From assembly GCA_947481575.1 (NCBI GenBank), contig CANKGV010000007.1, positions 1 through 64,000 of the forward strand: a stretch of DNA of 64,000 bases, in the 5' to 3' direction. This stretch comes from Alphaproteobacteria bacterium. Its GTDB lineage: Bacteria > Pseudomonadota > Alphaproteobacteria > UBA2966 > CAIVPW01. The position numbers and the translations under genes were made by a program. Within the stretch, counting starts at the first letter, position 1. The number at the start of each line of letters is the position of its first letter. The notes under the pieces were generated by a model. That model was not told the origin of the DNA. It worked only from the letters and a program-made list of their open reading frames with translations, and did no database searches. Below are positions 34,577 through 42,439 of this stretch, piece by piece.

Positions 34577-34822
34577 ATGGACGCGATTAGCGACTACCTT
34601 GCGATGGGTGGCTTTGCCGCATACGTGTGGCCGGCCTATGTCATCACCGTGGGCGCGATGGTCGGCATGATTGTGGTCACGCTGCGCGACCTGCGCCGGG
34701 ACCGCAAAGCGTTGGCCGAACTGGAAGCGCAGAACCCGATGCGCAACGCACGGCGGGCCGCCCGCGCCACCCAGACCACCGGGATAGCCGGGCCCGAAGG
34801 AGATGACCGCATTGACCCGTAA
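34577..34822 (+). CDS. ccmD: Heme exporter protein CcmD
   Basis: An 81-aa small membrane protein: one N-terminal helix with the CcmD signature GGFAAYVWPAYVITV, then a basic cytoplasmic tail (LRDLRRDRKALAELEAQNP). It associates with CcmC and CcmE in the heme-export complex. The end overlaps the ccmE start. Confidence 0.9.
   Translation: MDAISDYLAMGGFAAYVWPAYVITVGAMVGMIVVTLRDLRRDRKALAELEAQNPMRNARRAARATQTTGIAGPEGDDRIDP
34797..34802 (+). promoter_or_regulatory. Shine-Dalgarno supporting a TTG start for ccmE
   Basis: AAGGAG abuts an ATG at 34803, too close to use, but sits 9 nt before TTG 34812, which opens the usual CcmE N-terminus TRKRQRM. Confidence 0.6.
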
Positions 34823-40075: not shown

Positions 40076-40693
40076 CTAGGCGCCCTCGTTCGGCGCCGCG
40101 CCCGGCGGCGGATTGCCGTGGCGCGTTAGCAACGGCACCTGGGCCAAGCTGAACGCAAATGTCAGCGGCATGATGCCGAAGACCTTGAAGTCGACCCAAA
40201 CGTCCGTACTGAAGTTGCGCCAGACGACTTCGTTCACGATGGCGAGCACAACGAAGAACGCGCCCCAACGAATGGCCAGCACCCGCCAGCCCTCGTCGGT
40301 CAGTTGAAACGCCGGTCCCAGTACGACGCGCACAAAGTTCCGGCCGATTGCCAGCCCGACAAAAATGAACGCCGCGAACAGACTGTTCACGATGGTCGGC
40401 TTGAGTTTGATGAACGTGTCGTCGTGCAGGTACAGCGTGAGCGAGCCGAACACGAGCACGACCACCGCCGTGACCATCGGCATGGCGGGGATGCGCCGCT
40501 CGCGCACCAGCGAGACGATCAGCGACAGGGTGATGGCGACCATGAATAGGCCGGTACCCCAATAGATTCCGGCGCGGGCGTTGGCGATGAAGAACACCGC
40601 CAGCGGCCCCGCCTCGATCACCAGGCGGACCAAGGCCGCGCCGCCGCTCGGCGGCGGTGCGCCCGGTGCCGACGGGGGCATCGCTTCGTTCAC
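40076..40693 (-). CDS. yciB: Inner membrane-spanning protein YciB (septation protein A)
   Basis: A 205-aa protein with about five membrane helices. Motifs typical of YciB/IspZ: VIEAGPLAVFFIANARAGIYWGTGLFM-type start, TLYLHDDTFIKLKPTIVNSLFA, LTDEGWRVLAIRWGAFF and NEVVWRNFSTDVWVDFKVFG. The family affects septation and envelope synthesis. ATG overlaps the upstream GYD gene by 4 nt. Confidence 0.93.
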   Translation of the reverse strand: MNEAMPPSAPGAPPPSGGAALVRLVIEAGPLAVFFIANARAGIYWGTGLFMVAITLSLIVSLVRERRIPAMPMVTAVVVLVFGSLTLYLHDDTFIKLKPTIVNSLFAAFIFVGLAIGRNFVRVVLGPAFQLTDEGWRVLAIRWGAFFVVLAIVNEVVWRNFSTDVWVDFKVFGIMPLTFAFSLAQVPLLTRHGNPPPGAAPNEGA

Positions 40694-40992
40694 TTACGCT
40701 TCTTCGTGGCCGCCTTGATACGGTCGCGGGCCTGCTTGATCTCAGCGCCGGAGAACGCCGGCAGGGTCAGGATGCTGCCGAAGCCTTCGGCGGCATACCA
40801 GATCGAGTAGGCCAGTACCGCTTGCGGGTCCTTGCAGTCGACGAAGTCGATAAAGTCGTATTCGCCTTGGGTGTAACCACCCGCGTCGACGGTGATACCG
40901 AGGTCCTTCATCTTTGCGACCGCGGCCTTCACCCGCTCGTCCCAGCGGCGGGTCCATTCGGGACTGATCTTTGCCAACAACACGTATTTCAT
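40690..40992 (-). CDS. GYD-domain-like small protein
   Basis: A 100-aa cytoplasmic protein with GGYTQGEYDFIDFVDCKDPQAV and the C-terminal SILTLPAFSGAEIKQ, resembling the GYD family of dimeric alpha/beta-barrel proteins. Function is unknown. ATG 40992 has a strong GGAGG site 5-6 nt upstream. It is coupled to yciB by an ATGA overlap. Confidence 0.65.
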   Translation of the reverse strand: MKYVLLAKISPEWTRRWDERVKAAVAKMKDLGITVDAGGYTQGEYDFIDFVDCKDPQAVLAYSIWYAAEGFGSILTLPAFSGAEIKQARDRIKAATKKRK

Positions 40993-41131
40993 AGGTGCCT
41001 CCGTAGCGGGGCGGCCACTCTAACCCCGTTGCCGCCGCCTACGCTCGCGAAAACCCGACTAGGATTGCTGGAGGGCGGACAGCTGCGGTGGTCCGACCCA
41101 TGCGGGGCAGTAAGCGCACCCCACAAACGAA

Positions 41132-41159
41132 GCGGGCGCCGGAATTACCCGGCGCCCGC
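41132..41159 (-). terminator. Hairpin downstream of the 21-codon ORF
   Basis: An 11-bp perfect GC-rich stem, GCGGGCGCCGG / CCGGCGCCCGC on the plus strand, around a 6-nt loop. On the minus strand it is followed by TTCGTTTGT, only weakly U-rich. It lies 23 bp beyond the stop of the small ORF at 41183. Confidence 0.6.
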
Positions 41160-41165
41160 ATTCTC

Positions 41166-41182
41166 ACTCGCCAGAGGCGAGT
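41166..41182 (-). other. Stem-loop abutting the 21-codon ORF stop
   Basis: ACTCGCC-AGA-GGCGAGT, a perfect 7-bp stem with a 3-nt loop. It begins one base after the TAA of the small minus-strand ORF. Confidence 0.6.
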
Positions 41183-41248
41183 TTACTTCTTGGTCGGCTT
41201 GCCGGCCGGTTTCGCACCGGGCTTCGGCTTGCTGGGCGCAGTGGCCAT
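41183..41248 (-). CDS. Putative 21-aa Lys/Pro/Ala-rich peptide
   Basis: ATG 41248 has GGAG about 9-12 nt upstream (CAGGAGACTACCAAC) and is followed by 20 codons and TAA. The peptide begins MATAPSKPKPG and ends GKPTKK; it is strongly basic with no hydrophobic stretch. It is flanked upstream by two stem-loops and an A+T-rich region and downstream by two hairpins. I do not recognise it. A real microprotein, a leader peptide or a chance ORF inside a small RNA are all possible. Confidence 0.45.
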   Translation of the reverse strand: MATAPSKPKPGAKPAGKPTKK

Positions 41249-41278
41249 GTTGGTAGTCTCCTGACAGGCATTGCGAAA

Positions 41279-41293
41279 CGGGTTTTTCACCCG
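41279..41293 (-). other. Stem-loop in leader of 21-codon ORF
   Basis: On the minus strand CGGGT-GAAAA-ACCCG: 5-bp stem, 5-nt loop, about 30 nt before the ATG at 41248. Confidence 0.5.
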
Positions 41294-41325
41294 GTGAACC
41301 TCGCGAATTGCGTCGCGCGGTTCAC
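41294..41325 (-). other. Long stem-loop in leader of 21-codon ORF
   Basis: GTGAACC-T-CGCG / CGCG-C-GGTTCAC: 11 base pairs with one mismatch and an 8-nt loop. It directly abuts the stem-loop at 41279-41293. Could be an mRNA leader structure or a dyad operator. Confidence 0.55.
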
Positions 41326-41454
41326 AATTCCTATCTTCTCCATTCACTTGGGGAAATCAAGAGCAAACTACCGTTTTGCAAGAAAACGAGGCCGGTTTTC
41401 GCATCATTCGATGGATTTACCCCCTCGGCTTGTCTTTGGACGCGACTTTGGGTG

Positions 41455-41487
41455 ACTCAGTCCCCGCAGTATTCACGGGGCACGAGT
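41455..41487 (-). terminator. Possible ftsY terminator
   Basis: Stem ACTC-(3x3 internal loop)-CCCCG / CGGGG-GAGT with a 9-nt loop, beginning 5 bp after the ftsY stop. No T-tract follows on the minus strand. Confidence 0.35.
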
Positions 41488-41491
41488 CCAA

Positions 41492-42439
41492 TCACGGCTC
41501 TAGGCCCACAAGCGAACGAGCGAACTCCGTAGCGCGGAATGGCTGCAGGTCATCGACCCCTTCGCCAACTCCAATGAAGTACACGGGCAAACCGAATTCT
41601 TCCGCAATCGCCACCAACATGCCGCCGCGCGCCGTGCCGTCGAGTTTGGCCATGACCAGCCCCGAGACCTCGGCGATCCCGCGGAATACTTCGACCTGCG
41701 AACGGGCGTTCTGGCCGGTGGTGGCGTCCAAGACCAGCAGCACCGCGTGCGGCGCCGTCGTGTCGAGCTTGTGCAGCACGCGTACGATCTTGGCCAACTC
41801 CGCCATCAGATCCGCCTTGTTCTGCAGGCGCCCGGCGGTGTCGATCAGCAGCACATCGGCCTTGGCCTCGCGGGCCTTTTGTAAGGCCGTGAAAGCCAAG
41901 CCGGCGGCGTCAGCGCCGGGCGCATCCGCCACTACTTCGGCACCGGCGCGCTCACCCCACACGCGCAATTGCTCGATGGCAGCGGCCCGGAACGTGTCAC
42001 CGGCCGCAATCATGACTTTGCGTCCTTCACCCCGCATGCGGGCGGCGAGCTTGCCGATCGTGGTGGTCTTGCCAGTGCCGTTCACGCCCACGACCAGCAG
42101 CACAAACGGCTTGGCGGCGGTCAGGTCCAGGGCTCGCTCGGCCGGGGCCAAGACCCCCGCGATTTCTTCGGCCAGCGCCTCGCGCAGTTCCACCGGCGTG
42201 AGCTCACGCCCCATGCGGGTGTCGCCAAGGCGCTTGGTGATACGACCCGCAACCCGCACTCCCAGGTCGGCAGCGACCAGTTGATCTTCGAGTTCTTGGA
42301 GTGTGGCGCGGTCAATCTTGCGGCCGCCCAGTAGACCGGCGATGCCACCGCCCAGGGCCCCCGCTGTCTTGCTTAGGCCGGTGCGGAGCCGCGCCAGCCA
42401 CCCCAGTGCCGGCGCAGACCCCGTCGTGCTGCCGGTCAT
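41492..42439 (-). CDS. ftsY: Signal recognition particle receptor FtsY
   Basis: A 315-aa SRP receptor GTPase with N and G domains and almost no acidic A domain, as in many alphaproteobacteria. P-loop GVNGTGKTTTIGKLAARM, DTFRAAAIEQLRVW, LLIDTAGRLQNK, and AKLDGTARGGML. ATG 42439 overlaps the mtaB stop (ATGA); the ORF extension to 42556 lies within mtaB and is rejected. It pairs with Ffh, encoded divergently at 44922. Confidence 0.96.
   Translation of the reverse strand: MTGSTTGSAPALGWLARLRTGLSKTAGALGGGIAGLLGGRKIDRATLQELEDQLVAADLGVRVAGRITKRLGDTRMGRELTPVELREALAEEIAGVLAPAERALDLTAAKPFVLLVVGVNGTGKTTTIGKLAARMRGEGRKVMIAAGDTFRAAAIEQLRVWGERAGAEVVADAPGADAAGLAFTALQKAREAKADVLLIDTAGRLQNKADLMAELAKIVRVLHKLDTTAPHAVLLVLDATTGQNARSQVEVFRGIAEVSGLVMAKLDGTARGGMLVAIAEEFGLPVYFIGVGEGVDDLQPFRATEFARSLVGLEP

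Follow-up and report, generated by a model that had tools for sequence, protein, structure and literature searches.

VcdRP of Vibrio cholerae is a 306-nt RNA that carries the 29-aa VcdP ORF and ends in a terminator, and both its peptide and its RNA act (excerpts of PMC8672173). By analogy, it would be the nearest described architecture to the small unit analysed here. As far as those excerpts go (PMC8672173), VcdRP is a stand-alone intergenic RNA of a few hundred nt with promoter, leader, ORF of 20–30 codons and Rho-independent terminator, a layout that our unit would share through its putative promoter and terminator-like hairpin, and in both the ORF and the RNA part are conserved. VcdR pairs via a run of four cytosines (same excerpts), whereas our unit is likened to it by layout, not sequence, and encodes a Lys/Pro/Ala-rich peptide. 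For that composition, the nearest characterised counterpart appears to be the tail of KPAA repeats in AlgP/PhaF. Peptides of this type are reported to bind DNA in vitro, and AlgP sits on polyphosphate granules and is required for granule spacing (excerpts of PMC9239181). The peptides of our unit are likewise Lys/Pro/Ala-rich, and KPAA occurs within three of them (genomes G003, G004 and G007), but in AlgP a repeat region of 154 aa is joined to a helical domain at the N-terminus, whereas here the whole protein is 20–28 aa; the resemblance is one of composition, and homology is not implied. We did not classify the unit with histone-H1-like KPAA proteins, as it has neither the long tail nor the N-terminal helical domain. 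The CcaF1–CcsR (CIN1) system of Alphaproteobacteria also joins a small protein gene to a 3′ RNA part and a terminator, but CcaF1 is a 71-aa DUF1127 protein (excerpts of PMC10253847), while the peptide of our unit has no Pfam match. Membership in CIN1 was rejected because DUF1127 was found neither by Pfam (three peptides) nor by NCBIfam (five peptides). CcsR RNAs carry a CCTCC motif, and the unit has no such run.

The window is the whole 64,000-nt stretch of alphaproteobacterial DNA that we analysed; named relatives of the GYD protein encoded next to the unit point to that class. The unit occupies 41360–41125 on its minus strand, inside the gap between ftsY and a GYD-domain gene, and is laid out as follows:

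41492, minus: end of ftsY, the upstream neighbor of the unit
41332–41360, minus: putative promoter-like block (TTGATT, 17 nt, AAGATA), inside an A+T-rich patch
41294–41325, minus: leader stem-loop 1, 7+5 pairs with one mismatch (folding)
41279–41293, minus: leader stem-loop 2, 5 pairs (folding)
41258–41262, minus: Shine-Dalgarno (SD) sequence AGGAG, 9 nt before the ATG
41183–41248, minus: ORF of 21 codons plus TAA, peptide MATAPSKPKPGAKPAGKPTKK (orthologues and codon-position pattern)
41166–41182, minus: 7-bp stem-loop, its first base directly after the stop codon (folding)
41125–41159, minus: terminator-like, G+C-rich hairpin of 11–12 bp, stem 41159–41132, tail TTCGTTT (TTCGTTTGTG) (terminator scan)
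40690–40992, minus: GYD-domain gene, downstream of the unit (Pfam GYD, 3.3e-10)
after the GYD gene, minus: ispZ (Pfam IspA, 2.1e-59)

An earlier note, made from the letters of this DNA, had described a unit of this kind on the minus strand of the gap, and nearly all of its layout holds. The A+T-rich patch has a G+C content of 0.42 at 41320–41419, compared to ~0.6 or above some 100 bases away on either side. The 5-bp stem-loop (41293–41279), the GGAG site, the 21-codon ORF and the 7-bp stem-loop behind the stop codon are all found, and the terminal hairpin, described as 11 bp, has 11 Watson–Crick pairs (12 with a G–T pair) and is picked up by a terminator scan. The first stem-loop is also present, although folding gives it 12 pairs instead of 11. 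The A+T-rich patch is the likely promoter region of the unit. Its promoter-like block aligns without gaps to the TTGCAA...CAAAAT block of five relatives, and when the two are compared with free end gaps, 21–22 of 36 bases agree. A simple sigma-70 scan called no promoter at the unit, the block lying below the scan threshold. Upstream, a few bases past the ftsY stop codon, a hairpin without a T-run (GACTC..CCCCG / CGGGG..GAGTC, window 41454–41488, minus) was noted by eye.

We lean, with somewhat better than even confidence, towards the view that the unit is a monocistronic mRNA encoding a microprotein that is cationic, disordered and probably binds a polyanion, and that its conserved 3′ UTR may have a function as RNA as well. 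This would be an independent small-protein gene of ~200 nt, in which the conserved promoter-like block would start the transcript, followed by a folded leader and then the AGGAG site and an ORF of 20–28 codons. The post-stop hairpin and the hairpin resembling an intrinsic terminator would end the transcript ahead of any neighbor. Translation would yield a short, disordered Lys/Pro peptide lacking acidic residues, which would work through its charge by attaching to a polyanion, be it DNA, RNA or polyphosphate, in the manner of histone-H1-like KPAA tails. Additionally, the 3′ UTR would probably have a role of its own, in transcript stability, as a protein-binding site or as the source of a 3′-derived regulatory RNA.

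The case for a gene begins with its orthologues, which the earlier note had proposed to look for. A 421-base DNA query recovers a single copy of the unit from its own genome and, among 60 other genomes, detects it in 5, which all belong to one sister genus of the same family. A covariance model of the ORF and 3′ UTR, built from the same six sequences that it recovers, finds the unit in 6 of 15 genomes of the order at E ≤ 1e-5, that is, in 6 of 8 in the family and none of 7 in the other family; the six all score E ≤ 2e-27. Two further rows (E 2e-6 and 3e-6) are not the unit, one being an unrelated gene end and the other a reverse-strand match on the terminator. The unit was not found in two members of the family, G001 and G002 (the latter 79% complete). 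The sample thus comprises six sequences, five of them from one genus. In these six genomes, promoter-like block, ORF and terminator occur together, and the ORF changes in the manner of coding sequence, in keeping with the short stand-alone unit that had been proposed. Judged by this conservation, the unit is an orthologous small gene and not a chance assembly of signals. What is new is a lineage-restricted small gene without a family match; its kind, a microprotein gene, is already known.

Among the matches inspected, wider searches returned the unit from its own family alone. A strict pattern matched 3 of 385 genomes of the class, all within that family. Model R1 reached E ≤ 0.01 in 28 of the 289 class genomes searched, of which two belong to the family; leaving aside two units and a reverse-strand match that overlaps one of them, its list holds 33 matches. 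We inspected 13 of the 33 (the remainder mostly score lower), as well as five further weak matches and 3 of 11 non-orthologous peptide matches. None of those inspected holds a homologous unit; they proved to be ends of genes, gene-internal stretches or different Lys-rich proteins. R1 gave no convincing match at four named loci with a GYD relative, and the plasmids and phages searched held no match to the unit. The terminator stem recurs weakly at four other places in these genomes, which were discarded: three are within long ORFs, and the fourth follows a gene that looks by eye like cox3. Filtering for K/P-rich ORFs downstream of ftsY is uninformative, since it failed to pick up the copies known from the sister genus.

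The orthologous ORFs encode 20–28 aa in five genomes, with varying N-terminus and length: MAKMPSKGAGKPAPKPAGGKPAAKPTKK in G004, MANMPSKGAGKPAPKPAGGKPAAKPTKK in G003, MANMPNRSAGKPAPKPAAKPAGKPTKK in G005, MAGKPAPKPAAKPAAKPTKK in G007 and MAKTPSRGAGKPAPKPAGKPAGKPTKK in G006. Start, SD and stop are retained, and by eye a GGAG site lies 7–9 nt before the ATG in all six. Of 29 minimal changes, 3, 7 and 19 fall at codon positions 1, 2 and 3 (the excess at position 3 has binomial p 0.0004), and 16 of the 29 are synonymous, versus 9.5 expected under random placement (P 0.005); both tests treat the changes in these six sequences as independent, ignoring relatedness. Indels within the ORF are in-frame (18 and 3 nt), and single-base indels occur in the 3′ UTR. 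At residues identical to the window's, synonymous differences number 4, 3 and 3 in G004, G005 and G006, versus 4.4, 6.0 and 4.1 predicted from FtsY. Since this is not clearly below the ftsY prediction, constraint on the ORF looks to be at the protein level. By these patterns of change, the ORF evolves as coding sequence and is conserved as a peptide, and the unit is probably a real lineage-specific microprotein gene. The window's peptide has six lysines, five prolines and no acidic residues. Pfam, searched with three of the six peptides (E ≤ 1), gave no family, nor did NCBIfam with five peptides (E ≤ 10), and one peptide matched no PDB sequence (E ≤ 1); polyanion binding is therefore suggested by composition. 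Among the titles and abstracts returned by literature searches, none describes the unit, and the strings GKPTKK and AKPTKK came up in a single, unrelated paper. Microproteins of ~20 residues are easily missed in annotation; here, comparison reveals one with start, stop, SD, terminator and orthologues.

Could the RNA have a second job? It may, and the main reason to think so is the 3′ UTR. The 60 bases after the stop codon are identical at 51 positions to G004 and at 47 to G005 (free-end-gap alignment). For comparison, we took the conserved gene ends of the window whose downstream 60 bases overlap no conserved gene (11 for G004, 18 for G005). These reach at most 37 of 60 for G004 and 38 for G005, with the exception of one end, at 34822, which has 45 of 60 in both; we take this end to be coding sequence missed by the filter, since the stretch has an ATG ten bases from its start, from which an ORF continues. 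Gene ends that run into a gene reach up to 54 and 53 of 60, and the neighboring ispZ terminator has 36 and 26 on the same measure. DNA identity is 78–83% across ORF and 3′ UTR versus 64–70% in the flanking genes, although the scoring schemes of the two figures differ. The terminator-like hairpin is conserved in all six genomes, and the tail TTCRTTTGTG in four. On these comparisons, a terminator by itself does not explain the conservation of the 3′ UTR; sequence is kept beyond what a terminator needs, and the 3′ UTR therefore probably has its own role. An Hfq-dependent role is possible, as an Hfq gene is present in all eight family genomes.

These observations give some weight to the idea of a dual-function RNA of the VcdRP or SgrS/SgrT type, in which the peptide acts alongside a 3′ UTR that titrates a protein or forms base pairs with other mRNAs. 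The layout and size class are those of VcdRP, with its 29-aa ORF in a 306-nt RNA (excerpts of PMC8672173), and the coding-type substitutions and in-frame indels point to a conserved, translated ORF. With respect to a separate short transcript, a terminator-like hairpin is found and the promoter is deduced from conservation alone. On the other hand, most of the conserved part lies in stems, a single-stranded seed that never varies is not seen, and Rfam has no matching family at gathering threshold, either in the window (0 matches) or in the sister-genus loci L003–L007 and at 41050–41500. Matches at loose E-values are all sub-threshold, e.g. CsrC, which scores 18 bits where 61 are required. Given how far conservation of the 3′ UTR exceeds that of neighboring gene ends, we regard a dual-function RNA as possible, if on present evidence unlikely.

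Folding bears on a further alternative, that this is a non-coding structured RNA with a fortuitous ORF. The 211-nt minus strand of the unit folds with z -5.5, and 0 of 200 shuffles are equally low; among 160 sampled 200-nt windows on both strands (20 shuffles per window), the lowest z is -4.35, the median -0.18, and only 2 are at or below -3.5. Perfect hairpins with arms of at least 11 number 3 in the 64 kb, versus 0 or 1 in each of 8 shuffles. Structure is restricted to the two UTRs, since z is -3.2 for the leader and -6.4 for the 3′ UTR (0 of 500 shuffles as low for each) and -0.25 for the ORF, which alone is unstructured. Five core pairs of the post-stop hairpin are kept in most relatives (90% of cells), and three of the five are broken in one sequence, G007. 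In the model of ORF and 3′ UTR, only 3 pairs change on both sides and most are invariant, so covariation says little for or against the 3′ UTR hairpins. A strongly folded leader and 3′ UTR flanking an unstructured ORF, together with the strong conservation of the 3′ UTR, are what a non-coding RNA might look like, but the codon-position pattern, the in-frame indels and the retention of SD, start and stop make it quite improbable.

The last alternative turns on the surroundings of the unit. It lies downstream of ftsY, on the ftsY strand, in the window's genome (G000) and in G003, G004, G005 and G006; the G007 contig, on which ftsY was not found, stops close to the unit. On contigs long enough to tell, the unit sits between ftsY and ispZ. 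An extra ORF separates ftsY from the unit in G003, G004 and G006, so the unit need not rely on ftsY read-through. Next downstream come GYD and ispZ in the window, ispZ in G005 and G007, and a convergent gene or its remnant in G003, G004 and G006. The regulated leader among the three options of the earlier note, in which translation of a leader peptide controls read-through into GYD or ispZ, draws on the same-strand position of these two genes in the window and on a hairpin that touches the stop codon with a terminator next, but no competing antiterminator is seen in the folds, the peptide is conserved as a peptide, and, with a downstream gene that changes and lies convergent on the opposite strand in three of six genomes, the attenuator reading fails and is the least probable of all. 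A microprotein mRNA remains the best fit among those options.

The 5′ leader behaves differently from the rest of the unit: its sequence is not conserved between the two genera. By eye, a CGCAA-like run ahead of the SD is nearly all that the window and sister-genus leaders have in common, and a model of the sister-genus leader does not find the window's. The window's genus has a simple two-hairpin leader, and the sister genus a covarying leader RNA of ~95 nt, present in five genomes, with an invariant GGTGCCTACC apical hairpin (GGT-GCCT-ACC) and a GGGTNACC element. Its positions are:

L003 1647–1770, minus: sister-genus leader RNA
L004 1648–1771, minus: sister-genus leader RNA
L005 1648–1772, minus: sister-genus leader RNA
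L006 1627–1746, minus: sister-genus leader RNA
L007 1340–1462, plus: sister-genus leader RNA

MAFFT misplaced one arm of this leader; a hand alignment served for a first look, and a model-fitted alignment was used afterwards. In the latter, 92.6% of cells are paired, and changes on both sides occur in 6 pairs and 9 cells, versus 2.9 and 3.1 in shuffles and 0–1 pairs when the structure is slid along; these counts lean towards the model structure, to which the alignment was fitted, and the sequences are related. The compensatory changes that the earlier note had proposed to seek are thus few in the 3′ UTR, and clear only in a leader that the window does not share. The leader model, R2, has real matches in 5 of 15 genomes of the order and none in 240 genomes of the class at E ≤ 0.01, which is weak evidence, as that set contains no known positive. 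A sixth, weak match in the window's genome (E 0.037) was rejected, as it lies inside an ORF that looks by eye like an asparagine synthase. The sister-genus leader is absent from Rfam. Going by its covariation, it is a clear structured RNA, not homologous to the window's leader, and the sister genus thus provides a covarying leader RNA new to Rfam. With peptide and 3′ UTR kept and the leader replaced between genera, the question whether the mRNA is also a regulatory RNA becomes directly testable. A bolder and more doubtful proposal is that the unit represents a new lineage-specific dual-function RNA family, in which a microprotein resembling an H1 tail would be permanently coupled to a conserved regulatory RNA at the 3′ end, whereas the control element at the 5′ end could be exchanged; the ~95-nt leader could then be a new cis-regulatory RNA class that senses a metabolite or the unit's own peptide.

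Finally, we note several features around and beyond the unit. The gene convergent to it, presumably SAM hydroxide adenosyltransferase-like, is open over 263 codons in G006 (L029 3279–4067) and seems broken into pieces in G003 and G004 (L027 1237–1749 and L026 1363–1752). Three of the eight family genomes each contain a single copy of a perfect palindrome, ACTTGAGNNCTCAAGT, which in every case lies directly behind the unit's terminator (G003 C29:1941–1956, G004 C10:88269–88284, G006 C6:33065–33080), and is a candidate for a shared terminator serving the convergent gene, or for a protein site. In another family of the same class, a Lys/Ala-rich ORF of ~50 codons (MKKTIELAAKKVAKKAAKKSAKK...), followed by a short hairpin, lies at ~1430–1580 of locus L077 (genome G275) and resembles in kind a tiny H1-like protein.
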